From: Halopelagius inordinatus
Lineage (GTDB): Archaea; Halobacteriota; Halobacteria; Halobacteriales; Haloferacaceae
Direction of reading: 5' to 3'
Length of the DNA stretch: 64,000 nucleotides
Assembly: GCF_900113245.1 (NCBI RefSeq)
Contig: NZ_FOOQ01000001.1
Coordinates: forward strand, 248,001 to 312,000
The stretch's first letter is position 1, and each line of letters starts with the position of its first letter. The notes under the pieces are model-generated. The model ran no database searches. It was not told the DNA's origin and saw only the letters and a list, made by a program, of their open reading frames with translations. Shown piece by piece: positions 7,519 to 46,558 of the stretch. A program made the translations under genes and the position numbers.

Positions 7519-7851
7519 ATGCCGAGACCAGAGGTTCTCGAACGGATCAAGACTGCCGAGAACGAGGCCGACGACATCGTCGCAGAGGCCGAGGCCGACC
7601 GCGAGGAGCGAATCGCGGAGGCGCGACGCGAGGCAGAAGAGATCCGTCAACAGGCCGAGGAAGAGGCGCGTGAGTACGAGGAGGAACGTCTCGACGACGC
7701 TCGCTCAGACATCGAGGAAGAGCGCGCGGAGATCCTAGAGCGCGGCGAGAGAGCGCGCAAGGAACTCGTCGAAGACGCACAGGACAACGCTGACGAGGCG
7801 GTCGAATACGCCATCGAACAGTTCGAGGAGGCGGTGCATGCTCAGACCTGA
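7519..7851 (+). CDS. atpH: A-type ATP synthase subunit H
   Basis: This is the peripheral-stalk subunit H of the archaeal A-type ATP synthase, which pairs with subunit E to form the stator. Its 110 residues are almost entirely one charged coiled coil (Glu/Arg/Ala heptads from residue 5 to 100), as expected for the family. It is the first gene of the atp operon and overlaps atpI by 14 nt, so the two are translationally coupled. Confidence 0.93.
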   Translation: MPRPEVLERIKTAENEADDIVAEAEADREERIAEARREAEEIRQQAEEEAREYEEERLDDARSDIEEERAEILERGERARKELVEDAQDNADEAVEYAIEQFEEAVHAQT

Positions 7852-10069
7852 GCAGATGAGCAAAGTCTCCGTGACCGGGTCCAAACGCGTGATGGACCCC
7901 GTCATCGAGACGGTCCACGACCTGAACCTGCTACACGTCACCGAGTACGACGACACGTGGGACGGGTTCGACCCCGGCGACCCCGCAGAGGGTGCCGAGG
8001 ACGCCTCCGAGAAACTCGTCACCGTCCGATCGCTCGAGAGCATGCTCGACGTCTCAGGCGACGACGCGGGGCCGACTCGCATCGTCACGGACGAGGCGCT
8101 CGAAGCCGACCTCGACGAGATTCGCGAGCAGGTCAACGAACTCGACGACGAACGACAGGACCTCCGTCAGGAACTCCGCGATGTCGAAGACCGCATCGAC
8201 GCGATGTCGCCGTTCGTCGACCTTGGAATCGACCTCGACCTGCTGTCCGGGTACGACAGCCTGCAGGTCGCGGTCGGAGAGGGTCGAAGAGAGACCGTCG
8301 AACGCGCTCTCGTCGACGCCGACGACATCCGGGCGTACGAGGTCTTTTCGGGTGACAAGACGCTCGCCGTCTTCGCCCGTCCCTCGAAGCACGCCGACGG
8401 CGCGGCGCTCTCGGACGTTCTCGTCGGCGCCGACTTCGTCGCCATGGACGTGCCGGACGCAGACAGGAGTCCCGAAGACTACGTCCGCGACCTCGAACAC
8501 GAGGCCGAGCAGATTCGCTCGGAACTGGAATCCGTCGAAGAGGAACTCGAACGGCTGAAACTCGACGCCGCGGGCTTTCTGCTCGCCGCAGAAGAGAAGC
8601 TCTCGATAGACGTCCAAAAGACCGAAGCGCCGCTCTCTTTCGCGACGACGGAGAACGCGTTCATCGCCGAGGGGTGGATTCCCTCCGAGCGATACACCGA
8701 GTTCGCCGCGTCGCTGAAAGACGCCGTCGGCGACCACGTGCAGGTCGAAGAACTCGAACGCGCGTCGTTCAGTTCCGACGGCAACGACCACGTCCGCGAG
8801 GACATCCCCGCGGACCCCGGCGGCGGCGGTCCGGGAACCCCCTCGGTCACGGACGGTGGAGACGGCGCAGACGCCGACGCGCGCGCCGACGGCGGCAGCG
8901 CGGTCGTGATGGAGAACGACGAACCGCCGACGGTGCAGAACAACCCCGGTGCGGTCCGCCCGTTCGAGATTCTCGTCAACGCCGTCAGCAAGCCGAGCTA
9001 CTTCGAACTCGACCCGACGGTCATCCTGTTTCTGACGTTCCCGCTTCTGTTCGGGTTCATGATCGGTGACCTCGGGTACGGTCTCGTCTACATGGGAATC
9101 GGCTACTTCCTGTGGAGTCGGTACGACGACCGCCCGGCGTTCAAGAGCATGGGCGGGGTCACCCTCGCCGCGGGGCTGTTCACGCTCATCTTCGGTATCC
9201 TGTACGGCGAGATATTCGGGCTCCACCTCATCTCGACGTACTTCTGGGAGGGTCTCCTCGGTATGGGGCACCCGCCGATAGAGAAGGGTCTCTCGCCCGC
9301 AACCTCCGAGTGGGCCCTCGGGTGGCTCGTCGTGAGCCTGCTCGTCGGTATCGTTCACCTCAACATCGGGTACATCTTCGGCTTCGTCGAGATGTACGAA
9401 CTTCACGACCTGAAGCACGCAGTCTACGAGAAGGGGTCGTGGCTCCTGATGCTGAACGGACTGTGGGTGTGGATCTTCTCGGACGTGACCCGCGGGACCG
9501 CCCCGGACTTCATGTTCACCACGTTCACGTCCGACGGCGTTCTCCCGCTCGGCTTCGCCGGGTTCCCGGAACTCGTCGGGTGGGCCGGACTCGCCGTCTT
9601 CTTCGTCGGACTCGCCCTCCTCGCGGTGGGCGAACCCATCGAAGCCGTCGAGTTCCTCAACGTGCTCGTGAACGTCCTCTCGTACACGCGTGTCGCGGCG
9701 GTGCTGTTGGCGAAGGCGGGGATGGCCTTCACGGTCAATCTCCTGTTCTTCGGCGTGTACACCGTCCCGGGCGAACACGGCGAGGAGTGGCACTTCATGC
9801 TCAACTACGGGCCGGAGTACGTCCTCAGCCACTACGACGAGGCGTCCATCATGTTCGGCGGCCTCGTCCACGGCGACGCGGCGACCATCCTCATCGGTCT
9901 GCTCGTCCTCGTCCTCGGGCACCTCCTCGTGCTCGCACTCGGCGTGACGAGCGCCGGTCTGCAGGCCGTGCGTCTCGAGTACGTGGAGTTCTTCAACAAG
10001 TTCTTCCAAGGCGGCGGCCGCGAGTACGAACCGTTCGGCTACGAGCGCCGCTACACCACCGAAGACTGA
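7838..10069 (+). CDS. atpI: A-type ATP synthase subunit I (a-subunit)
   Basis: This membrane stator subunit provides the proton half-channels facing the K ring. Its 743 residues comprise a cytoplasmic N-terminal half (1-360, coiled coils at about 85-125 and 215-245) and a C-terminal half with about seven to eight membrane helices (about 390-715). A Gly/Asp/Ala-rich acidic linker (about 325-360) joins the two halves and looks like a halophile-specific insertion. The SYTRVAAVLLAKAGMA stretch should contain the essential membrane arginine. A 196-nt gap with its own signals separates it from atpK. Confidence 0.95.
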   Translation: MLRPEQMSKVSVTGSKRVMDPVIETVHDLNLLHVTEYDDTWDGFDPGDPAEGAEDASEKLVTVRSLESMLDVSGDDAGPTRIVTDEALEADLDEIREQVNELDDERQDLRQELRDVEDRIDAMSPFVDLGIDLDLLSGYDSLQVAVGEGRRETVERALVDADDIRAYEVFSGDKTLAVFARPSKHADGAALSDVLVGADFVAMDVPDADRSPEDYVRDLEHEAEQIRSELESVEEELERLKLDAAGFLLAAEEKLSIDVQKTEAPLSFATTENAFIAEGWIPSERYTEFAASLKDAVGDHVQVEELERASFSSDGNDHVREDIPADPGGGGPGTPSVTDGGDGADADARADGGSAVVMENDEPPTVQNNPGAVRPFEILVNAVSKPSYFELDPTVILFLTFPLLFGFMIGDLGYGLVYMGIGYFLWSRYDDRPAFKSMGGVTLAAGLFTLIFGILYGEIFGLHLISTYFWEGLLGMGHPPIEKGLSPATSEWALGWLVVSLLVGIVHLNIGYIFGFVEMYELHDLKHAVYEKGSWLLMLNGLWVWIFSDVTRGTAPDFMFTTFTSDGVLPLGFAGFPELVGWAGLAVFFVGLALLAVGEPIEAVEFLNVLVNVLSYTRVAAVLLAKAGMAFTVNLLFFGVYTVPGEHGEEWHFMLNYGPEYVLSHYDEASIMFGGLVHGDAATILIGLLVLVLGHLLVLALGVTSAGLQAVRLEYVEFFNKFFQGGGREYEPFGYERRYTTED

Positions 10070-10129
10070 GACGCGCCCCTCCCTCTCGGCCTTCGCTATC
10101 TCTCCGTCCGCGAGCCGCGCCACTCGATA

Positions 10130-10164
10130 ACTAGTTTCGCTCTATTCGGCCGAATTCGGGCCGA
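10130..10164 (+). promoter_or_regulatory. Candidate control elements upstream of atpK
   Basis: The atpI-atpK gap holds ACTAGTT (10130-10136), identical to the core of the Bat activator site seen before bop. It also holds a near-tandem ATTCGGCCGA / ATTCGGGCCGA (10144-10164), whose first half is a 12-bp palindrome. Both lie 35-70 nt upstream of a TATA-like box for atpK. A functional role is inferred only from position and symmetry. Confidence 0.3.
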
Positions 10165-10195
10165 TACGCCGGGCTACGGCGAAGCGGTTTGGGAA

Positions 10196-10203
10196 CCTTT
10201 ATG
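10196..10203 (+). promoter_or_regulatory. Internal TATA box for atpK
   Basis: CCTTTATG lies about 66 nt before the atpK start, which predicts a start site near 10226 and a 5' leader of about 40 nt. An extra promoter here would raise the level of the multicopy K subunit relative to the other subunits. Confidence 0.5.
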
Positions 10204-10265
10204 AGGTGTGTCTGTCCACATACGCACGTTCGGAGACGACAAACCGTCACAGAGCATACTCAACT

Positions 10266-10511
10266 ATGTCAGCACTAACACTCCTACAGGAAGCTCAGGC
10301 AGCTGCCCCGGCTCTCGAAGCACCCGCCGCCGCCGCTCTCGCGGTCGGTTTGGCCGCGTTCGGCGCGGGATACGCGGAGCGCGGCATCGGTGCCGCCGCG
10401 ATGGGTGCCATCGCAGAAGACGACGACCTCTTCGTCAACGGTCTCATTCTGACCGTTCTTCCGGAGACGCTCGTCATTCTGGCACTCGTCGTCGTGTTCC
10501 TGGTCTCGTAA
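10266..10511 (+). CDS. atpK: A-type ATP synthase subunit K (proteolipid ring, c-subunit)
   Basis: This 81-residue proteolipid forms the rotating ring. It has two membrane helices, one rich in Gly/Ala (about 20-50) and one at 55-80. Glu67 in LPETLVILALV is the expected ion-carrying carboxylate. A single two-helix hairpin means a canonical one-site K subunit rather than a fused form. The start at 10266 (MSALTLLQ) was chosen because upstream in-frame codons encode unrelated polar residues. Confidence 0.93.
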   Translation: MSALTLLQEAQAAAPALEAPAAAALAVGLAAFGAGYAERGIGAAAMGAIAEDDDLFVNGLILTVLPETLVILALVVVFLVS

Positions 10512-10534
10512 GCACCATCCCACCCTTTCCATCA

Positions 10535-11116
10535 ATGAGTTTGGATAACGTCGTCGAAGATATACGAGGCGAAGCACGCGCGCGTGCGGAGGAAATTCGC
10601 GAGGAGGGCGAGCGCCGCGCCGCTGAGATCATCGAGGAGGCCGAGGCGGACGCCGCGGAACTCCTCGAAACACGAGAGGCGGACGTCGAACGCCAGATCG
10701 AACAGGAGCGCGAGCAGTCGCTCTCCGGCGCGAAGTTGGAGGCGAAACAAGAACGCCTCGCCGCCCGGCGCGACGTCCTCGAAGACGTCCGGAGCCGAGT
10801 CGAGGACGAACTCGCCTCGCTCTCGGGCGACCGCCGCGAAGAACTGACTCGCACGCTCCTCGACGCCGCGGCCGACGAGTTCGACGACAGCGACGACGTC
10901 GTCGTCTACGGCCGCGCGGACGACGCCGCCTTGCTCGAAGACGTCCTTACGGATTACGACGGCTTCAGCTACGGAGGCGAGCACGACTGCCTCGGCGGCG
11001 TCGTCGTCGAGAGCGAGTCCTCGCGCGTCAGAGTGAACAACACGTTCGACTCCATCCTCGAGGGCGTCTGGGAGGACAACCTCAAGGAAGTGAGCACCCG
11101 ACTGTTCGACCAATGA
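10535..11116 (+). CDS. atpE: A-type ATP synthase subunit E
   Basis: This stator subunit forms the peripheral stalk with H and caps the A3B3 head. It has 193 residues: a long N-terminal coiled coil (about 1-105, Glu/Arg/Ala-rich) followed by a globular alpha/beta domain (about 110-190), as in known subunit E. The start MSLDNVVEDIRGEARARAEE follows atpK by 23 nt. Its end overlaps the atpC start by 4 nt (ATGA). Confidence 0.93.
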   Translation: MSLDNVVEDIRGEARARAEEIREEGERRAAEIIEEAEADAAELLETREADVERQIEQEREQSLSGAKLEAKQERLAARRDVLEDVRSRVEDELASLSGDRREELTRTLLDAAADEFDDSDDVVVYGRADDAALLEDVLTDYDGFSYGGEHDCLGGVVVESESSRVRVNNTFDSILEGVWEDNLKEVSTRLFDQ

Positions 11117-12159
11117 GTGTATCCGGCGGTTCCAATCCGGAGTACGTGACCGCTCGCGTCAGGGCGCGACAGAGCGCGCTGTACAGCGAGGAGGACTACC
11201 GCAAGCTGGTTCGGATGGGACCGGCCGAAATCGCCCGGTTCATGGAGGAGTCGGAGTACGAAACCGAGATCAACGCGCTCGGTTCCCGCTACTCGGGGGT
11301 CGACCTCATCGAGTACGCGCTGAACCGAAATCTCGCAAAGCAGTTCGACGACATCCTCGACTGGGCGGAAGGCCGCCTGTACGACCTCATCGCGCGCTAC
11401 CTCCGGAAGTACGACGCGTGGAACGTCAAGACGGTCATCCGGGGGCTCTACTCGGACGCCGACCGCGACGATATCGCGGACGACCTCATCCGCGCGGGTG
11501 AGTTCTCCGAGGCGTTCCTCGACAGACTGCTCGACTCGAACAGCATCGAAGACGTCGTCGAGCGACTTCGAGGGACGATATTCGACGCCGGTCTCGACGA
11601 GGCGTACGCGGACTACGAGGAGACGGACGTCCTCGTTCCGCTCGAAAACGCCATCGACCGCGCGTACTACGAGACGCTGCTCGGGAACCTCTCGTCGAAC
11701 GAGAAGACCCGACAGTACCTCGACTACCTCGAAGCCGAGATAGACTTCCGCAACGCGCGGAACGCGCTCCGACTCGCTCGAAGCGGGGCGGACATCGACC
11801 CCTCCGAGTACTATATCAGTGGCGGGGGTCTATTCTCGGCGTCGGAGCTGACGACGCTCGCGCAGAACCCCGACGAGTTGGTTTCGAGGATTCGCGACTC
11901 GGAGTACGGCGACGACCTCTCGGCTGCGCTCGACGAACTCGACGAGGCCGGTACCCTCCTCGGGTTCGAACGCGCCCTCGACGTCGCGCTCCTCGAGAAG
12001 GCCCGCGGGATGGGGAGCGTGTTCCCCCTCTCGGTCGGTCCGATCATCGCCTACATCCTGCGCAAAGAGCAGGAGGTGGACAACATCCGCGCCATCGCCC
12101 GAGGACGCGAGGCCGGTCTCTCCGAGGACGAGATCGAATCGGAGCTGGTCATCCTATGA
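11113..12159 (+). CDS. atpC: A-type ATP synthase subunit C
   Basis: This is the funnel-shaped subunit that connects the central rotor stalk (D and F) to the K ring. Its 348 residues match the family. It shows the internally repeated helical region, with FMEESEYETEI near the start and the conserved RKEQEVDNIRAIARG near the C-terminus. It overlaps both neighbours by 4 nt (atpE before, atpF after). Confidence 0.94.
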   Translation: MSVSGGSNPEYVTARVRARQSALYSEEDYRKLVRMGPAEIARFMEESEYETEINALGSRYSGVDLIEYALNRNLAKQFDDILDWAEGRLYDLIARYLRKYDAWNVKTVIRGLYSDADRDDIADDLIRAGEFSEAFLDRLLDSNSIEDVVERLRGTIFDAGLDEAYADYEETDVLVPLENAIDRAYYETLLGNLSSNEKTRQYLDYLEAEIDFRNARNALRLARSGADIDPSEYYISGGGLFSASELTTLAQNPDELVSRIRDSEYGDDLSAALDELDEAGTLLGFERALDVALLEKARGMGSVFPLSVGPIIAYILRKEQEVDNIRAIARGREAGLSEDEIESELVIL

Positions 12160-12485
12160 GTCAGGAGATAGCCGTCATCGGGAGTCCGGACTTCACGACC
12201 GGCTTCCGGCTCGCGGGAGTCAGGAAGTTCCAGAACGTCCCGGAAGACGAGAAGACAGAACAGCTCGACGAGGCCGTAGAGGAGACGCTCGCGGACGACG
12301 ACGTCGGCATCATCGTGATGCACGACGACGACGTAGAGCATCTCTCCCGCCAGGTCCGCCAGTCGGTCGAAACCAGCATCGAACCGACGCTGGTTACGCT
12401 CGGCGGCGGGGCGGGCGCAGGCGGCCTCCGCGACCAGATCAAACGAGCCATCGGTATCGACCTGATGGAGGAGGACGAAGACTAA
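12156..12485 (+). CDS. atpF: A-type ATP synthase subunit F
   Basis: This 109-residue central-stalk protein binds subunit D inside the catalytic head. It has a Rossmann-like N-terminus ([20 protein letters not shown]), the conserved [10 protein letters not shown] segment and a mobile C-terminal helix. The gene starts within the atpC stop (4-nt overlap) and ends 1 nt before atpA. Confidence 0.94.
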
Positions 12486-12486
12486 C

Positions 12487-14244
12487 ATGAGTGCAACACA
12501 AGAGACTGTCCGAGAGGACGGCATCATCGAGAGTGTGAGTGGTCCCGTCGTGACCGCACGTGACCTCGACGCCCGGATGAACGACGTCGTCTACGTGGGC
12601 GACGAAGGTCTGATGGGCGAGGTCATCGAAATCGAGGGCGACATCACGACGATTCAGGTGTACGAGGAGACGTCCGGCGTCGGTCCCGGCGAACCCGTCG
12701 AGAACACGGGCGAACCGCTGACCGTCGACTTGGGTCCCGGTCTGTTGGACTCCATCTACGACGGCGTCCAGCGACCCCTCGACGTGCTCGAGACGAAGAT
12801 GGGTAGCCCCTACCTCGACCGAGGCGTCGACGCACCCGGAATCGAACTGGACAAACAGTGGAGCTTCGCGCCCGAAGTCGCCGCCGGAGACGTCGTCGAA
12901 CCCGGCGACGTCGTCGGCACCGTCGAGGAGACGGTCACCATCGACCACAAGGTCATGGTCCCGCCGACGTTCGAGGGCGGCGAAGTCGTCTCCGTCGAAT
13001 CGGGCGAGTTCACCGTCGAGGAGGCGGTGGTCGAACTCGACAACGGAGAAGAGGTCACGATGCGTCAGGAGTGGCCGGTCCGAGAGGCCCGCCCCTCCGA
13101 GACGAAGAAGACGCCGCGGACGCCGCTCATCTCCGGGCAGCGCATCCTCGACGGGATGTTCCCCATCGCGAAGGGCGGGACGGCCGCCATCCCCGGGCCG
13201 TTCGGCTCCGGTAAGACCGTCACGCAGCACCAGCTCGCGAAGTACGCCGACGCGGACATCATCGTCTACGTCGGCTGCGGCGAGCGCGGTAACGAGATGA
13301 CCGAGGTCATCGACGACTTCCCGGAACTCGAGGACCCCTCGACCGGAAACCCGCTGATGGCCCGAACCTCGCTCATCGCGAACACGTCGAACATGCCCGT
13401 GGCCGCGCGGGAGTCCTGCGTGTACACCGGTATCACCATCGCGGAGTACTACCGCGACATGGGGTACGACGTGGCGCTGATGGCCGACTCCACCTCCCGG
13501 TGGGCCGAGGCCATGCGCGAGATTTCCTCGCGTCTCGAAGAGATGCCCGGCGAAGAGGGGTACCCCGCGTACCTCGCCGCGCGCCTCTCCGAGTTCTACG
13601 AGCGAGCCGGTTACTTCGAGAACGTCAACGGCACGGAGGGGTCGGTCTCCGCCATCGGGGCCGTCTCCCCGCCGGGCGGGGACTTCTCCGAGCCGGTCAC
13701 GCAGAACACCCTGCGCATCGTCAAGACGTTCTGGGCGCTGGACGCCGACCTCGCGGAGCGTCGGCACTTCCCGTCGATCAACTGGAACGAGTCGTACTCG
13801 CTGTACAAGGACCAACTGGACCCGTGGTTCCAGGAGAACGTCGAAGAGGACTGGCCCGACGAGCGCCAGTGGGCCGTCGACGTCCTCGACGAGGAAGCCG
13901 AACTCCGAGAGATCGTTCAACTCGTCGGTAAGGACGCGCTGCCGGAGGACCAGCAGTTGACGCTCGAAGTCGCGCGCTACCTCCGCGAGGCGTACCTACA
14001 GCAGAACGCGTTCCACCCGACGGACACGTTCTGTCCGCCGGAGAAGACGTACCTCATGCTCACCTCCATCCACCACTTCAACGACGAGGCGTTCAAGGCG
14101 CTCGAAGCGGGCGTCCCGGTCGAGGAGATCATCTCCATCGATGCCGCTCCGCGCCTGAACCGCATCGGCGTGCAGGAGGACTACGAGGAGTACGTCGCGG
14201 AACTGAAAGACGAGATCGCAGAGCAACTACGGGAGCAGTACTGA
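12487..14244 (+). CDS. atpA: A-type ATP synthase catalytic subunit A
   Basis: This is the catalytic nucleotide-binding subunit. Its 585 residues include the long non-homologous region that is specific to A/V-type A subunits (about 115-190). The P-loop [10 protein letters not shown] is at about residues 236-245, followed by [12 protein letters not shown] with the catalytic glutamate, then [16 protein letters not shown]. No intein is present. It is flanked by atpF and atpB, with a 3-nt gap to atpB. Confidence 0.98.
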
Positions 14245-14247
14245 ACG

Positions 14248-15675
14248 ATGAAGGAATACCAGACCATCACCGAAATCAGCGGTCCGCTGGTGTTCGCCGA
14301 GGTCGACGAGCCGATCGGATACGACGAGATCGTCGAAATCGAGACGGAGAACGGCGAGACACTGCGCGGTCAGGTCCTCGAATCCTCGGACGGCCTCGTG
14401 GCCATCCAGGTGTTCGAGGGCACGAGCGGTATCGACCGGAACGCGTCCGTCCGCTTCATGGGCGAGACGCTGAAGATGCCCGTCACCGAGGACCTCCTCG
14501 GACGCGTCCTCGACGGGTCGGGCCAGCCGATAGACGGCGGCCCCGACATCGTCCCCGACGAGCGCCACGACATCGTCGGCGCGGCCATCAACCCCTACTC
14601 CCGAGAGTACCCCGAGGAGTTCATCCAGACCGGCGTTTCCGCCATCGACGGCATGAACACGCTGGTCCGCGGTCAGAAGCTCCCCATCTTCTCGGGGTCG
14701 GGGCTGCCGCACAACGAACTCGCGCTTCAGGTCGCCCGTCAGGCGACCGTTCCCGAAGAGGAGGAAGCGGGCGACGACGACGACGGCTCCGAGTTCGCGG
14801 TCATCTTCGGCGCGATGGGTATCACGGCCGAAGAGGCAAACGAGTTCATGGAGGACTTCGAGCGGACGGGCGCACTCGAACGCTCCGTCGTCTTCATGAA
14901 CCTCGCGGACGACCCCGCAGTCGAGCGGACGGTCACGCCGCGTCTCGCGCTCACCACCGCCGAGTATCTCGCGTTCGAGAAGGACTACCACGTGCTGGTC
15001 ATTCTCACGGACATGACCAACTACTGTGAGGCCCTGCGCGAAATCGGCGCGGCCCGCGAAGAGGTTCCGGGCCGTCGTGGCTACCCCGGATACATGTACA
15101 CCGACCTGGCGCAACTGTACGAACGCGCCGGTCGAATCCAGGGCCGCGAGGGTTCCGTGACGCAGATTCCCATCCTCACGATGCCGGGTGACGACGACAC
15201 GCACCCGATTCCGGACCTGACCGGATACATCACCGAGGGTCAGATCTACGTCGACCGTGACCTGAACAGCCAGGGCGTCGAACCGCCGATAAACGTCCTT
15301 CCCAGCCTCTCGCGGCTGATGGACGACGGTATCGGCGAGGGCCTGACGCGCGAGGACCACGCGGACGTCTCCGACCAGATGTACGCCGCGTACGCCGAGG
15401 GTGAGGACCTTCGGGACCTGGTGAACATCGTCGGCCGCGAGGCGCTGTCCGAGCGTGACAACACCTACCTCGACTTCGCCGACCGCTTCGAAGAGGAGTT
15501 CGTGGACCAGGGGTACGATACGAACCGCTCTATCGACGAGACGCTCGAAATCGGCTGGGACCTCCTGTCGATGTTCCCGAAGAAGGAGCTCAACCGCGTC
15601 GACGAGGAACTCATCGAAGAGCACTACCGAGAGTCCTCGACCGACGAAGGCGCCGAAGAAGTCACAGCAGACTGA
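14248..15675 (+). CDS. atpB: A-type ATP synthase regulatory subunit B
   Basis: This is the non-catalytic nucleotide-binding subunit that alternates with A in the head. It has 475 residues. The P-loop position is degenerate ([12 protein letters not shown]), as expected for B. The conserved [14 protein letters not shown] and [14 protein letters not shown] stretches are present. A T6 tract follows 17 nt after the stop, so the atpH-B message probably ends here and atpD is made from a separate transcript. Confidence 0.97.
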
Positions 15676-15692
15676 GCCGTCGCCCACGTTCG

Positions 15693-15698
15693 TTTTTT
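15693..15698 (+). terminator. U-tract terminator after atpB
   Basis: T6 (CGTTTTTTCC) starts 17 nt after the atpB stop codon. Short U-tracts are sufficient for termination by archaeal RNA polymerase. No hairpin is needed and none is seen. The tract separates the atp message from bat. Confidence 0.55.
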
Positions 15699-15774
15699 CC
15701 GCGTTCGCACCGTCCGAGCGCCGCGTTCGTTCGGCCACCCCGAAACGTATCACCGCACAGATCCTACTGAAGAC

Positions 15775-17739
15775 ATGGCGAACCGGCTGTTCCAAGAGCG
15801 CGTGTTGGTCGCCGTCGCAGACGACCGGACGTACGAACGGGCCGAGAGACTGCTCCGGTCGGTTCTCGACGACTGTTCCATCCGGCGTGTCACCCGCTCG
15901 GCCGACGCGCGGTCCGGCGACGGAGCCTTCGACTGCGTGGTGGTCGCCGACGATCTTCCCGACGGTCGAGCGACGAGCGTCGCCGACGCGTTCGCGGACG
16001 CGCCCGTCGTGATACTGCGTCACCCCGACAGCGACCTCACGGTGCCGGAGGCGTTCGACGCGGGTGCGGCGGACGTCGTCACCGTCGGAGAGACGAACCG
16101 CTTCGAGCGACTCGGCGAACGAGTCGCGAGTGCGATGACCTGGTGGCGACGTCGAGCGGAGTTGACAGAACGCATCGGAGAGGACCTGAAAGAGCAGGCC
16201 ATGGACGAGGCTCCGGTCGGTATCACTATCGCGGACATGTCGCTTCCGGACGGTCCGTTGGTGTACGTCAACGAGGCGTTCGAGACGACGACGGGCTACC
16301 CGAAATCGCAAGCGTTGGGCCGCAACTGTCGGTTTCTCCAGGGGCCGGGTACGGAGGAGGAACCGGTCGCCGAACTCCGGCGTGCAGTCGATTCCGAGTC
16401 GTCTGCGACGGTCGAACTGCTGAACTATCGACGCGACGGTGAGCCGTTTTGGAACCGAGTGGACATCGCACCGCTGTGCGACCCCGACGGACGAGTGACA
16501 CACTACGTCGGATTCCAGACGGACATCACCGCGCGCGTTCGCGCCGAAGAGGCTGTCGAACGCGAACGTGCCCGGCTTCAGCGACTCGTCGACCACATCG
16601 AGGGGCTACTCGTGGAGACGTCCGAAGTTCTCGTGCGCGCGCAGGCGAGAGACGAACTCGAGCGGAAGGTGTGCGAGCGAATCGCGGCCACGGAGCAGTA
16701 CTCGTGTGCGTGGATAGCCGACTGCGACCTCTCGCCGGAGGCCGTCGTTCCGGACGCGTGGGCGGGGGAGATGCCCTCGTCCGTCGTCGGGCTACGGATA
16801 GCCCTCGACGACACAGCCGACCCGGTCGCTCGGACCGTCGCGACGCGGACCCCGCAAATAGCCCGCGACCCCGAAGGACAGTTTCACCACAACGTCGTCC
16901 TCCCGTTCGGGGGCCTCGTCGCGGTCCCCTTACTCCACCGGGAGACGCTGTACGGCGTCCTCACCGTCTACGCGGAGACGGTCGACGAGCACGAGCGGAT
17001 AGTCCTCGGCGCGTTGGGCCGGGCGGTCGGTGCCGCCATCGACGCGTTCGAGAGTCGTCGAACGCTCATCACCGACAGCCGTCTGTCGCTTCGGTTCGAG
17101 GTGGTCGCGCCCGACTCGCCACTCGTCTCCGTCGCTCGCCGAGGTGACTGCCGCCTCGACTACGAAGGCGTCGTCGCCCGCGACGACGGGTCCGTCGTCC
17201 TGTTCGTCTCCTCGCCGTCGTCAGACGTCGAACTCGACAGCTCGGACATCCCGGGACTCGACCACGTTCACCGACTGCAACGAACCGGCGGCACGGCCGT
17301 CTACGAACTGCTTCTCTCTCCCGGTTCGCTGCTCTCTCAGATTGCAGAGGGAGGGGCGCGACTCACAGACCTCACCGTCGATGCGACGCGGGGCACGGTC
17401 GTAATCGACACGACTGTCGCCGACCGAACGCTCGGGCGCAGACTCCTCGAAGACGTCGAACGAACGTCTCGTTCGGTTCGACTACTCGCGGTCGGCGAGA
17501 ACGAAGACCCCACCGATACCCGACGGGCGTTCGCCGGTTCCGTCGAAGAGAAACTCACGGACAAACAGCGAACCGCGCTCCAACTCGCGCATCTCGGGGG
17601 GTTCTTCGAGTGGCCGCACGGTATCTCGGGAGACGAGTTGGCGGACGCGATGGATATCTCGCGTTCGACGTATCACCAACACCTCCGCGCGGCCGAGAAG
17701 AAACTCGTCTCGCAGTTCTACCGGCACCACCCCAACTAG
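15775..17739 (+). CDS. bat: Bacterio-opsin activator with receiver-like, LOV, GAF and HTH domains
   Basis: This 654-residue transcriptional regulator is the probable activator of bop. A receiver-like domain without a clear phosphorylation site (1-125) precedes a PAS domain (about 140-255) that is a full LOV domain. The LOV features are GRNCRFLQG with Cys185, NYRRDG with Asn217, FWN with Asn227, and GFQTD with Gln248, all of them the flavin-contact residues. A GAF domain (about 275-420), the Bat-specific domain (about 430-580) and an HTH_10 domain (about 595-650, SGDELADAMDISRSTYHQHL) follow. The length is close to Halobacterium Bat. It lies immediately upstream of bop, in the same direction. 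Confidence 0.9.
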   Translation: MANRLFQERVLVAVADDRTYERAERLLRSVLDDCSIRRVTRSADARSGDGAFDCVVVADDLPDGRATSVADAFADAPVVILRHPDSDLTVPEAFDAGAADVVTVGETNRFERLGERVASAMTWWRRRAELTERIGEDLKEQAMDEAPVGITIADMSLPDGPLVYVNEAFETTTGYPKSQALGRNCRFLQGPGTEEEPVAELRRAVDSESSATVELLNYRRDGEPFWNRVDIAPLCDPDGRVTHYVGFQTDITARVRAEEAVERERARLQRLVDHIEGLLVETSEVLVRAQARDELERKVCERIAATEQYSCAWIADCDLSPEAVVPDAWAGEMPSSVVGLRIALDDTADPVARTVATRTPQIARDPEGQFHHNVVLPFGGLVAVPLLHRETLYGVLTVYAETVDEHERIVLGALGRAVGAAIDAFESRRTLITDSRLSLRFEVVAPDSPLVSVARRGDCRLDYEGVVARDDGSVVLFVSSPSSDVELDSSDIPGLDHVHRLQRTGGTAVYELLLSPGSLLSQIAEGGARLTDLTVDATRGTVVIDTTVADRTLGRRLLEDVERTSRSVRLLAVGENEDPTDTRRAFAGSVEEKLTDKQRTALQLAHLGGFFEWPHGISGDELADAMDISRSTYHQHLRAAEKKLVSQFYRHHPN

Positions 17740-17743
17740 TTTG
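17730..17743 (+). promoter_or_regulatory. Bat-type upstream activator sequence of bop
   Basis: The 14-mer CCCCAACTAGTTTG matches the Halobacterium bop-regulon UAS, which I recall as ACCnnACTAGTTnG, at 10 of 11 fixed positions. Only the first base differs. It sits 44-57 nt before the bop start, almost the same place as in Halobacterium, and overlaps the bat stop codon. CTAG is generally scarce in haloarchaeal DNA, so a chance match is unlikely. Confidence 0.65.
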
Positions 17744-17752
17744 GTAGGGCCG

Positions 17753-17760
17753 ATATGCAA
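17753..17760 (+). promoter_or_regulatory. Weak TATA-like box of bop
   Basis: ATATGCAA is centred about 30 nt before the bop ATG and about 20 nt downstream of the UAS. This spacing fits an activator-dependent core promoter with a start site 1-3 nt before the ATG. The match to a TATA consensus is weak, consistent with a need for Bat. Confidence 0.4.
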
Positions 17761-17786
17761 ACTCATGCCATACTTGTGAGTGTACT

Positions 17787-18518
17787 ATGGCAACCCCTGG
17801 AAGCGAATCGATATGGCTGTGGCTCGGTACGGCCGGAATGACGCTCGGAACGCTCTTCTTCATCGCCCGCGGGTGGGGCGTGAAGGACGAGAAAGAACAG
17901 CGGTTCTACATCATCACGATATTCATAACCACCATCGCGTCGGCGGCGTACTTCTCGATGGCGACCGGATTCGGCCTCACACAGGTGGAAGTCGGTACTC
18001 AGGTGCTCGACATCTACTGGGCCCGCTACGCGGACTGGTTGTTCACCACGCCGCTGTTGCTTCTCGACCTCGCGCTCCTCGCGGGGGCGAACAGGAACAC
18101 CATCTACACGCTCGTCGGTCTCGACGTGTTCATGATCGGAACCGGACTCGCCGGTGCGTTCGCCTCCTCGGCACCCGCACGAATCGCCTGGTGGGCTATC
18201 AGCACCGTCGCGCTGTTGTTCCTCCTGTACTTCCTGGTCGAGGCGCTCTCGGAGGCCGCAAAGACGCAGACCGAGTCGGTTCGGAAACTGACGAACACGC
18301 TCCGAAACATGATAATCGTCCTCTGGTTGGCGTACCCCGTCGTCTGGATTCTCGGCACCGAAGGGACCGTCGGCTTCCTCCCGTTGTACGTCGAGACGGC
18401 GGCGTTCATGGTTCTCGACCTCACCGCGAAGGTGGGATTCGGGGTCGTCCTGCTGCGCAGTCACAGCATCCTCGAAGAGGCCGGACAGACGACTCCGGCG
18501 GCCGCGACTGCCGACTGA
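17787..18518 (+). CDS. bop: Bacteriorhodopsin, light-driven proton pump
   Basis: This seven-helix retinal protein of 243 residues moves protons out of the cell in light. Every residue of the pump pathway is present: Arg80, Asp83 (proton acceptor), Thr87, Asp94 (proton donor) in RYADWLFTTPLLLLDLA, the release pair Glu192 and Glu203, Asp211, and the retinal Schiff-base lysine Lys215 in LDLTAKVGFG. This is a proton pump rather than a halorhodopsin or sensory rhodopsin, because the Asp/Thr/Asp motif is intact. There is no long N-terminal leader; the protein starts MATPGSES. It lies between bat and the retinal synthesis genes. Confidence 0.97.
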   Translation: MATPGSESIWLWLGTAGMTLGTLFFIARGWGVKDEKEQRFYIITIFITTIASAAYFSMATGFGLTQVEVGTQVLDIYWARYADWLFTTPLLLLDLALLAGANRNTIYTLVGLDVFMIGTGLAGAFASSAPARIAWWAISTVALLFLLYFLVEALSEAAKTQTESVRKLTNTLRNMIIVLWLAYPVVWILGTEGTVGFLPLYVETAAFMVLDLTAKVGFGVVLLRSHSILEEAGQTTPAAATAD

Positions 18519-18535
18519 GAGCCGCCTCGGCTCTC
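18517..18535 (+). terminator. Stem-loop terminator after bop
   Basis: A perfect 7-bp hairpin (GAGAGCC/GGCTCTC, 5-nt loop) starts within the bop stop codon and is followed by CGTTTCTGT. It probably ends or protects the abundant bop message before the crtY promoter. Confidence 0.5.
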
Positions 18536-18548
18536 CGTTTCTGTAACG

Positions 18549-18556
18549 TTTAAAAA
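18549..18556 (+). promoter_or_regulatory. TATA box for crtY-brp
   Basis: TTTAAAAA lies 61-68 nt before the crtY start and is the strongest AT-rich box in the gap. It predicts a start near 18580 and a leader of about 37 nt. No Bat-type site is visible upstream, so the retinal synthesis genes may be controlled differently from bop. Confidence 0.5.
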
Positions 18557-18616
18557 CACTCACGCAAACCATTCAGTCATCGTGTCTCACACCATTCCCG
18601 ACCATCAGAGAGAACC

Positions 18617-19339
18617 GTGAGCGTGCGGCTCACGTACTTCGGCTTTCACGCCGTGTTTCTCCTGCCAGCGCTGGCGGTACTGGCAGTCGGCCTCTCTCAC
18701 AGTCGTCGGCGGCTGGACGCCACTCACTGGGTCGGGACGGCGCTCATCACCGTGGTCGCCCTCCTGTACACGACGCCGTGGGACAACCACCTCATCTCCC
18801 GCGGCGTCTGGGGGTACGGCGACGGTGTCGTCGCCCTGCGGGTGTGGCTCGTCCCCGTCGAGGAACTCCTGTTCATGCTCTTGCAACCGCTCGTCGTCGC
18901 GCTCTGGTTGTACGCTCTCGCGCTGGCGGTGAGGTCCGCCTCGGTGACGACGCGAGACCGACTTCTCGGCGTCGCGGCGGGGGCTCTCGTCGGGGCTGTC
19001 GGCCTCGTTCTCTACGTGTTCGGCGGTCAGACGTACTACCTCGGAGCCATCCTCACGTGGGCCGCTCCGGTCCTCGCACTCCAGTGGGGGTTCGGGTGGC
19101 CCTACCTGTGGGCGGTCCGTCGGACGTTCGCCTTCGGCGTCGCCGTCCCGACGGTGTACTTCTGTCTGGCCGACCGCGTCGCGCTTCAGTTCGGCATCTG
19201 GCACATCTCGGCCGACCACACCACGGGCATCGCCCTGTTCGGACTCCCCATCGAGGAGGCGACGTTCTTCTTCGTCACGAACCTGTTCGTGGTGCAGGGT
19301 CTCCTCTTGTTTCACTGGGTGGTCGAACGATGGCGCTGA
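18617..19339 (+). CDS. crtY: Lycopene beta-cyclase, fused CrtYc-CrtYd type
   Basis: This membrane enzyme closes both ends of lycopene to give beta-carotene, the precursor of retinal. It has 240 residues with about seven hydrophobic helices. Two homologous halves are visible, each with the family motifs (TTPWDNHLISRGVWGYGDGV in the first, PIEEATFFFVTNL in the second). It starts with GTG. The end overlaps brp by 10 nt. Its placement between bop and brp shows that it serves chromophore synthesis. Confidence 0.9.
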   Translation: MSVRLTYFGFHAVFLLPALAVLAVGLSHSRRRLDATHWVGTALITVVALLYTTPWDNHLISRGVWGYGDGVVALRVWLVPVEELLFMLLQPLVVALWLYALALAVRSASVTTRDRLLGVAAGALVGAVGLVLYVFGGQTYYLGAILTWAAPVLALQWGFGWPYLWAVRRTFAFGVAVPTVYFCLADRVALQFGIWHISADHTTGIALFGLPIEEATFFFVTNLFVVQGLLLFHWVVERWR

Positions 19340-20370
19340 GCGAACGCCCCGCCGTCGATAGAAGAGTGAAGCGACGGCTCGCTCGAACGGTGTTTCCCGT
19401 CGCGTGGGTCGCCCTCGCGGCCGTCGGTGTCGCCTCGCTCGTCGGCGTCACCCTCGGCGGCCCCTCTCGGTACGTCCCCCTGTTAGCGAGCGTCGTCTTC
19501 CTCGGACTGCCGCACGGTGCGCTCGACCACGTGACCGTGCCGCGCGCCCGCGGGTCGGAGCCCTCGGTTCGGTCGCTCGCCGCCGTGGGGGCGCTGTATC
19601 TCGTCTTCGGCGGCCTCTACGCGGTCGTCTGGTTTCTCACCCCCGCCGCGGCGTTCGTCGGCTTTCTCCTTTTGACGTGGTTTCACTGGGGGCAGGGGGA
19701 CGTCTACCCGCTCGTCTCTCTGACCGAGGAGACGCACCTTCGAACCCGGGGGCAACGCGCCCTCGCGGCGACCGTCCGCGGCGGGATTCCGATGGTCGTC
19801 CCGCTCGTCGCGTTCCCGGAGACGTACCGCCGCGTCGCGGCGACGACCGTCGAACTGTTCGCCCCGGAAGTGACGTTCGCGTGGCTCGTTTCCCCGCCGC
19901 TCCGAATCTCCGTCGGCGTCGGGCTGGCTCTTGTCACCCTCGCGTCGCTTCTCCTCGGGTGGCGTCGAGCGCCACACGGTCCCTCTCGCACCGCGTGGCT
20001 GGTCGACGTCGGCGAGTCGGTGCTGCTTTGGGCGTTCTTCCTCGTCGTCCCCCCGCTGGTCGCCATCGGGCTGTACTTCCCGTTGTGGCACTCGCTGCGG
20101 CATCTCGCACGCCTCGCTGCGCTCGATTCGCCGGTCGCCGACGCGCTGTCGAACGGCCACTCTCTTTCGGCCGCCGCCTCTCTCGGCCGCGACGCACTAC
20201 CGATGACGGCCGGCGCGGTGGTCTTTCTCGGCGCTCTCGCGTTGACCGTTCCGACGGCCGTCGGTGGTATCGACGAAGTCGCGTCCGTCTATCTCGTCTC
20301 GCTCGCCGTCCTCACCCTCCCGCACGTGGTCGTCGTCTCGGTACTCGACCGGGTGCAAGGGATCTGGTGA
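19330..20370 (+). CDS. brp: Beta-carotene 15,15'-dioxygenase, Brp/Blh family
   Basis: This integral-membrane oxygenase cleaves beta-carotene into two retinal molecules. It has about 346 residues with many hydrophobic helices. The iron-binding histidine motifs of Brp/Blh are present: GLPHGALDHVTV near the start, TWFHWGQGD, LWHSLRHLARL and LTLPHVVVVSVLD. The start ATG at 19330 (MALSERPAVD) lies inside the end of crtY. Upstream in-frame codons are Arg-rich and belong to the crtY frame. It completes the bop, cyclase and retinal kit. Confidence 0.93.
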   Translation: MALSERPAVDRRVKRRLARTVFPVAWVALAAVGVASLVGVTLGGPSRYVPLLASVVFLGLPHGALDHVTVPRARGSEPSVRSLAAVGALYLVFGGLYAVVWFLTPAAAFVGFLLLTWFHWGQGDVYPLVSLTEETHLRTRGQRALAATVRGGIPMVVPLVAFPETYRRVAATTVELFAPEVTFAWLVSPPLRISVGVGLALVTLASLLLGWRRAPHGPSRTAWLVDVGESVLLWAFFLVVPPLVAIGLYFPLWHSLRHLARLAALDSPVADALSNGHSLSAAASLGRDALPMTAGAVVFLGALALTVPTAVGGIDEVASVYLVSLAVLTLPHVVVVSVLDRVQGIW

Positions 20371-20426
20371 CCCTCTCGTGGCCCGTCGTGGACTCGGTTC
20401 GGAGCCGGTTCGCGGAGACTGAAAAG

Positions 20427-20433
20427 GATTAAC
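20427..20433 (+). promoter_or_regulatory. TATA box of atpD
   Basis: GATTAAC is centred about 31 nt before the atpD start, so a nearly leaderless atpD message is expected. It shows that atpD need not depend on read-through from the rhodopsin genes. Confidence 0.5.
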
Positions 20434-20461
20434 CCCCTCCGTCCACAAGCGTCCCCCAAGG

Positions 20462-21160
20462 ATGGCCAACGACGTCAAACCGACTCGGAAGAACCTGATG
20501 GCGATAGAGGACCGCATCGAACTCTCCGAGCGAGGCCACGACACGCTGGAGCAGAAACGCGACGGCCTCATCATGGAGTTCATGGACATCCTCGACCAGG
20601 CGCAGGACGTCCGTTCGGAACTCAACACCAACTACGAGACCGCACAGCGGAAGATAAACATGGCGCGCGCGATGGAGGGCGACGTCGCGGTGCGCGGTGC
20701 GGCCGCGGCGCTGAAAGAACACCCGGAGATCACGACGCAGTCGAAAAACATCATGGGCGTCGTCGTCCCGCAGATAGAGTCCTCGCGCGTCAGAAAGAGC
20801 CTCGACCAGCGCGGCTACGGGCTGCTCGGGTCGTCCGCGCGCATCGACGAGGCCGCAGACGCCTACGAGGAACTGCTCGAAAGCATCATCCTCGCCGCGG
20901 AAGTCGAGACGGCGATGAAGAAGATGCTCAGAGAGATAGAGACGACGAAGCGCCGCGTCAACGCCCTCGAATTCAAGCTCCTCCCCGACCTCTACGAGAA
21001 CCAAGAGTACATCGAGCAGAAACTCGAAGAACAGGAGCGCGAAGAGACGTTCCGCCTGAAGAAGATAAAGGGCAAGAAAGAGGAAGAAGAGAAGGAAGAA
21101 CGCGAGGCCGAGGCGGCCGAAGAGGCCGCCGAAGCCGAGAGACTCCCGGCGGACGACTGA
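20462..21160 (+). CDS. atpD: A-type ATP synthase subunit D (central rotor shaft)
   Basis: This 232-residue coiled-coil rotor shaft turns inside the A3B3 head, the archaeal counterpart of gamma. The N-terminal motif [20 protein letters not shown] and the conserved [18 protein letters not shown] helix are both present. The C-terminal 30 residues are highly acidic and Glu/Ala-rich, a halophile addition. It is separated from atpB by the 4.6-kb bat-bop-crtY-brp block. Confidence 0.96.
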
Positions 21161-43747: not shown

Positions 43748-43873
43748 CCAGTCGCTCTGCTCGCTTCGCTCGCGTCGCTCCCTGCTTCGAATCCCGCGAT
43801 AGTCGCACAGCGATTCTCGGTCGTATCGCTCGGCGACGAGACGCCTCGCTCGAAAGTACGAGAATCGAAGAAG

Positions 43874-43946
43874 CGCCCGAGGCGGGATTTGAACCCGCGT
43901 CACGACCGTGACAGGGTCGTATGATGGGCCACTACACCACCCGGGC
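43874..43946 (-). tRNA. tRNA-Asp (anticodon GTC), copy 1
   Basis: This 73-nt tRNA folds with the acceptor stem GCCCGGG/CTCGGGC, discriminator G73, anticodon loop CTGTCAC with anticodon GTC, and T-arm GCGGGTTCAAATCCCGC. No CCA is encoded. It is identical to the second copy at 46486-46558. A CTTAAG box (43977-43982) lies about 33 nt before the 5' end. Confidence 0.95.
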
Positions 43947-46485: not shown

Positions 46486-46558
46486 CGCCCGAGGCGGGAT
46501 TTGAACCCGCGTCACGACCGTGACAGGGTCGTATGATGGGCCACTACACCACCCGGGC
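46486..46558 (-). tRNA. tRNA-Asp (anticodon GTC), copy 2
   Basis: This gene is identical over 73 nt to the tRNA at 43874-43946, with the same GTC anticodon and G73 discriminator. It probably uses the promoter box at 46585-46594. No CCA is encoded. It lies 267 nt upstream of rpoH, on the opposite strand. Confidence 0.95.

Follow-up and report, generated by a model that had tools for sequence, protein, structure and literature searches.

Why should the genes for a light-driven proton pump lie inside the gene cluster of the ATP synthase? The question is raised by a locus of Halopelagius inordinatus, found in a stretch of 64,000 nucleotides (NCBI RefSeq assembly GCF_900113245.1, contig NZ_FOOQ01000001.1, forward-strand positions 248,001 to 312,000; hereafter the window). 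The arrangement is real, intact and already described. We suggest that it probably belongs to a family of phototrophy cassettes (bat-bop-crtY-blh) that has long been linked to atp genes in haloarchaea, and which was parked at a transcription-unit boundary, kept here and lost elsewhere.

The cassette and its neighbouring genes

Family searches and open reading frames gave the order atpB-bat-bop-crtY-blh-atpD, all on the + strand, at 14248-21160. This confirms the positions and direction assigned to the four genes by an initial annotation of the sequence, and the pump, the retinal-making enzymes, the activator and the ATP synthase are indeed joined on one stretch. The A-type ATP synthase cluster 5' of the cassette is complete (ahaH, atpI, atpK, atpE, atpC, atpF, atpA and atpB; 7519-15675), and family models support all genes of the locus save atpK. 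No internal stops occur in atpB, bat, bop, crtY, blh or atpD, and every gene is intact. The genes are as follows.

7519..7851, +: ahaH/atpH, A-type ATP synthase subunit H (TIGR02926, 63 bits, above the cut-off)
7838..10069, +: atpI, A-type ATP synthase subunit I (a) (NF004430, 540 bits, full length, below the model cut-off of 670)
10266..10511, +: atpK, proteolipid c subunit (position and tblastn similarity across atp clusters; start set by eye, MSALTLL)
10535..11116, +: atpE, subunit E (PF01991, 143 bits; start set by eye, MSLDNVV)
11113..12159, +: atpC, subunit C (PF01992, 297 bits)
12156..12485, +: atpF, subunit F (PF01990, 66 bits)
12487..14244, +: atpA, subunit A (TIGR01043, 987 bits)
14248..15675, +: atpB, subunit B (TIGR01041, 860 bits)
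15775..17739, +: bat, bacterio-opsin activator (PAS_9, GAF_2, BAT and HTH_10)
17787..18518, +: bop, bacteriorhodopsin (PF01036, 232 bits)
18617..19339, +: crtY, lycopene cyclase (TIGR03462, 136 bits; GTG start)
19330..20370, +: blh/brp, beta-carotene 15,15'-dioxygenase (TIGR03753, 235.4 bits against a curated cut-off of 95.25; PF15461)
20462..21160, +: atpD, central-stalk subunit D (NF001542, 371 bits; PF01813)

The gene first named brp does encode a dioxygenase of the Blh/Brp family, as both TIGR03753 and PF15461 indicate; its start required correction to the ATG at 19330, which makes blh overlap the 3' end of crtY by 10 bases. When aligned to Halobacterium salinarum bacteriorhodopsin, Bop carries 10 of the 10 proton-pump residues checked (R82, D85, D96, D115, W182, W189, E194, E204, D212 and K216), thus keeping the Schiff-base Lys216, Asp85/Asp96, Asp212 and the release-group Glu194/Glu204. 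Bat has an N-terminal receiver-like part (recognized by inspection), a PAS/LOV-like domain with the motif GRNCRFLQ, and GAF, BAT and HTH_10 domains, so that the activator set of PAS, GAF, BAT and HTH_10 is present. CrtY is one protein with two lycopene-cyclase domains.

A PF15461 search of the organism's own genome returned the cassette blh as the only member of the Brp/Blh family. Two phytoene-synthase-family genes are located elsewhere in the genome. A second rhodopsin (L002; G000:C2:642217-642849) appeared sensory-like by inspection, with a tyrosine at the Asp96 position. Because blh is the sole gene of its kind in the genome, the retinal of both rhodopsins would depend on the cassette. The linkage of bac/bap to bop, typical of the classic H. 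salinarum/Halorubrum cluster, was not found at 15676-20461; apart from short gaps, the four cassette genes fill this interval, and there is no room in it for a CDC48-like gene. Elsewhere in the window, two tRNA-Asp(GTC) genes lie 2.5 kb apart on the - strand (43873-43946 and 46486-46558).

Rhodopsin genes at the atpB-atpD boundary of haloarchaea

Linkage of this type has been reported before. The bop of Haloarcula, linked to H+-ATPase subunit genes, was described as a 'third linkage pattern' (Sharma 2007, PMC1885257), and many haloarchaea were found to have bop between the B and D subunit genes (Verma 2019, PMC6465532; Verma 2020, PMC7755889, Fig. 6). According to the latter two studies, bat, crtY and blh occur as extra genes, with bat alone in one isolate and crtY + blh in H. 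salinarum. The arrangement was therefore already known, and the window locus belongs to this class: bop lies between atpB and atpD, bat, crtY and blh are on the same strand, and the bop is of the linked lineage. Like other members of the class, which often include bat, crtY or blh, it has bop between the B and D genes on the same strand. Haloarcula has bop alone at the atp site, whereas the window has all four cassette genes and no others; in Haloferax volcanii no gene is inserted in the atp cluster (Verma 2019, PMC6465532).

We surveyed 394 genomes of the class and located both bop and atpD in 134 of them. In 63 of these 134 genomes bop immediately precedes atpD and shares its strand, in 12 it is nearby and in 59 elsewhere; the bop places were the best ~155 by E-value, and these counts therefore favour bops resembling that of the window. 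The 63 linked genomes span the GTDB families f1, f2, f3, f4, f6 and f7. A Bop scan of named genome contigs also revealed linkage in Salinigranum, Halohasta, Halonotius, Natrinema ejinorense and two metagenome genomes. The arrangement had initially been taken as unusual or even a one-off, but the same order is widespread in haloarchaea as well as in print, and a survey of the atpB-atpD boundary, proposed as a check by the initial annotation, showed it to be already common, an outcome which that annotation had named as counting against its view. In 10 genomes of g27 (some of them taken as Natrinema; L173-L176 and others), bop and atpD are on opposite strands, 19-27 kb apart; of the atpB-atpD intervals examined there, two are occupied by an ABC transporter set and an acyl-CoA-ligase-like gene.

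To describe the boundary itself we used 138 atpD-centred regions, chosen to cover the majority of the linked genomes together with a range of other genomes. The full cassette was present in 19 of the 138 intervals, bat-bop-crtY in 8, bat-bop in 5, bop-crtY-blh in 4, bop-blh in 1 and bop alone in 15. Cassette genes without bop occurred as crtY-blh (5/138) or bat alone (3/138), 68 intervals had no cassette genes and 10 were not callable. Full cassettes were found in five families (f1, f2, f3, f4 and f7), and full, partial or remnant cassettes in six or more.

It is possible, though unlikely, that the boundary is a neutral hot spot which merely tolerates DNA, with rhodopsin genes as one cargo of many. 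The intervals of Natrinema reach up to 9.8 kb and hold unrelated genes such as an ABC transporter set, and the junction in Halohasta has unrelated genes too. Among the 68 cassette-free intervals, 32 were longer than 500 bp, and those inspected closely contained unrelated genes, which means that the site also accepts other DNA. However, rhodopsin-related content was found in 60 of 128 callable regions of a sample enriched for linked genomes, in a fixed order, and the genes form a coherent lineage.

History of the linked genes

The initial annotation considered that the block looked inserted. A recent insertion would mean that the cassette was put into an intact atp cluster in the lineage of the window, or at random in many lineages, the latter being the conclusion of Verma 2019 (PMC6465532) and Verma 2020 (PMC7755889). 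In a cassette-free genome of the same genus (G288) the atpB-atpD interval is only 147 bp, the cassette is absent from many genera, and some intervals hold unrelated genes, all of which would fit such an event. We nevertheless regard it as quite improbable, because the position, strand and internal order are always the same and because the trees, the remnants and the composition of the genes point the other way. Foreign composition, tried as a mark of recent insertion, was rejected: GC3 is 0.79-0.87 in the four cassette genes and 0.84-0.88 in the atp genes, and there is thus no strong foreign signature. In the comparison with the empty site of G288, the left flank gave no convincing alignment for an exact insertion junction.

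A tree of atpA, atpB and atpD from 126 genomes agreed with the GTDB families (10 label changes, compared to 53 in shuffles). The bop tree had 132 rows; on it the linked/unlinked label changed only 3 times, compared to 44 times in shuffles, and 0 of 500 shuffles were as low. This indicates that the linked bops are a coherent lineage, separate from the classic bacteriorhodopsins of H. salinarum and Halorubrum. The window bop groups with the linked copies of Salinigranum. In contrast, the bop of H. salinarum belongs to the classic clade (37 rows of the tree) and lies apart from the atp cluster, and its atpB-atpD interval has copies of crtY and blh where the window has the full cassette with bop.

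In the trees, partial cassettes fall inside clades of full ones. G018, taken as H. salinarum DSM 3754, has a blh remnant that is sister to a full-cassette blh of the same genus; the cassette remnants of g14 and g3 are nested within those genera; and the bat-only genes of g7 form the sister group of a bat clade made up of the window, g19 and Salinigranum. Moreover, C-terminal stubs of blh lie directly 5' of atpD in the 'empty' intervals of G220 (L213, E 3e-6) and G361 (L212, E 3e-4), and no blh match was found in the reversed intervals used as a control. We consider these stubs to be deletion scars. Together with the nested remnants, they suggest that the cassette was once present and then lost in several lineages. 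These findings do not support random insertion as concluded in the published studies, and the initial reading as an insert is weak and, for several genomes, reversed by the signs of deletion.

Loss is not the whole history. Mapped on the atp tree, the presence of bop required 19 changes, compared to 39.5 in shuffles, which is far from simple vertical descent. Family f1 includes two bop subclades, both atp-linked, and the linked bop of Natrinema ejinorense falls with family f7, a sign of transfer. The distances of bop and atp were correlated within each of the two subclades (r 0.72, p 0.014; r 0.41, p 0.016), and to that extent the co-inheritance proposed initially holds; across genera it does not (r 0.11, p 0.11). 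Besides loss, deep exchange in the same slot probably took place between lineages, and a few re-insertions may have occurred, the root not being fixed. More tentatively, phototrophy genes could in most haloarchaea have had their original place at the atpB-atpD boundary, where alternative bop cassettes swap by homologous recombination via the strongly conserved atp flanks. We think this somewhat doubtful, although such replacement would explain the two bop subclades in the same slot within one family.

Regulatory elements and the meaning of the position

Three elements in the window bear on how the genes may be controlled.

17730..17745, no strand assigned: Bat-box-like palindrome CCCCAACTAGTTTGGT, which overlaps the stop codon of bat and whose end is 41 bp 5' of the ATG of bop
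10129..10136, no strand assigned: palindrome AACTAGTT between atpI and atpK, on the 5' side of the atpK unit; a possible second regulator site
20417..20461, +: conserved 5' region of atpD, with a promoter-like box GACTGAAAAGGATTAAC at 20417-20433

The palindrome 5' of bop is the sole exact match in the genome (- strand) to ACCNNACTAGTTNG, which we take to be the consensus of the Bat upstream element (UAS), a consensus reportedly due to Baliga and DasSarma. One-mismatch sites of ACCNNACTAGTTNG numbered 24 genome-wide, compared to 4 with a reversed-pattern control. In linked regions, a palindrome with at most 2 mismatches was found 5' of bop in 38 of 52, a level reached by 6 of 132 shuffled upstream sequences. 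At the same threshold it occurred 5' of bat, crtY and atpD in none of the 52 regions and 5' of blh in 1. No TATA box of bop could be called with confidence. The cassette to some extent resembles the bop regulon of H. salinarum (bat, bop, brp and crtB1, with a Bat upstream activator sequence), as it includes a Bat-type activator, a Brp/Blh enzyme and an upstream palindrome similar to the Bat UAS.

The promoter-like box of atpD is conserved with or without the cassette, and the 45 bases 5' of atpD (20417-20461) are identical in the cassette-free G288. Judged from these elements, the cassette probably lies at a transcription-unit boundary. A comparable situation was reported for Haloquadratum walsbyi, in which atpD is monocistronic and >200 nt from its neighbours (PMC5496347). 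The likeness lies in an atpD transcribed apart from the ATP-synthase unit; the difference is that the three GC 0.47-0.49 genomes of g3 (G318 among them is taken as J07HQW2) have no cassette genes between atpB and atpD.

Alternatively, the placement might have been selected because the transcription of bop and the ATP synthase is coupled; bop transcripts could run on into atpD, for instance, or Bat could act on atp promoters. In Halonotius (L138/L139), in which the atp cluster is split, bop is still ~110 bp from atpD while atpB is gone from within 13 kb, and the Haloarcula bop, it was suggested, might share the atp transcript (Verma 2020, PMC7755889). AACTAGTT at 10129-10136, which has the same 8-base core as the bop palindrome and only 7 copies in the 3.53 Mb genome, would also be in favour of coupling. 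However, this site is exact in 1 of 44 linked genomes, and is degenerate and without the flanking bases of the bop site. A Bat-box-like element was absent 5' of both atpD and ahaH, the palindrome is bop-specific, and atpD has its own box regardless of the cassette. In G324 (L150/L261), with another split cluster, bop stayed beside atpB, and atpD follows bop at a distance of 22.8 kb; in many genomes bop is elsewhere. Coupled transcription is thus very improbable as the reason for the placement. Shared control of the cassette and the atp genes is not evident and finds little support in the sequence, so that the co-regulation envisaged initially is mostly unsupported; AACTAGTT in the atpI-atpK gap, as a candidate site, is one lead towards it. 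An assembly error, named in the initial annotation among the findings that would count against it, had no evidence in its favour, has practically no chance of being true and is refuted by the same order in many independent and unrelated assemblies, some of them single multi-megabase contigs.

We therefore return to an old cassette retained at a boundary. It would be situated between atpB, as the last gene of the ATP-synthase transcription unit, and a separately transcribed atpD, and with such a position it can be present, eroded or lost with neither unit broken. Bat would sense light or redox state via its LOV-like/PAS and GAF domains and activate bop through the palindrome; CrtY and Blh would convert lycopene to retinal; and bacteriorhodopsin would pump protons in the light, with the ATP synthase among other users drawing on the gradient. 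The linkage perhaps endures because a functional set of genes is retained, and passes between lineages, as a whole, at a permissive site flanked by strongly conserved genes, rather than because cassette and atp genes form one operon.

The locus offers a simple promoter hypothesis, with a palindrome at bop and a separate box at atpD. The useful part of the finding is the corrected history, in which, as the nested remnants and blh stubs indicate, an old cassette was eroded or lost in many lineages, contrary to the published random insertion. The gain and loss of haloarchaeal phototrophy may then be read at a single, easily scored locus.
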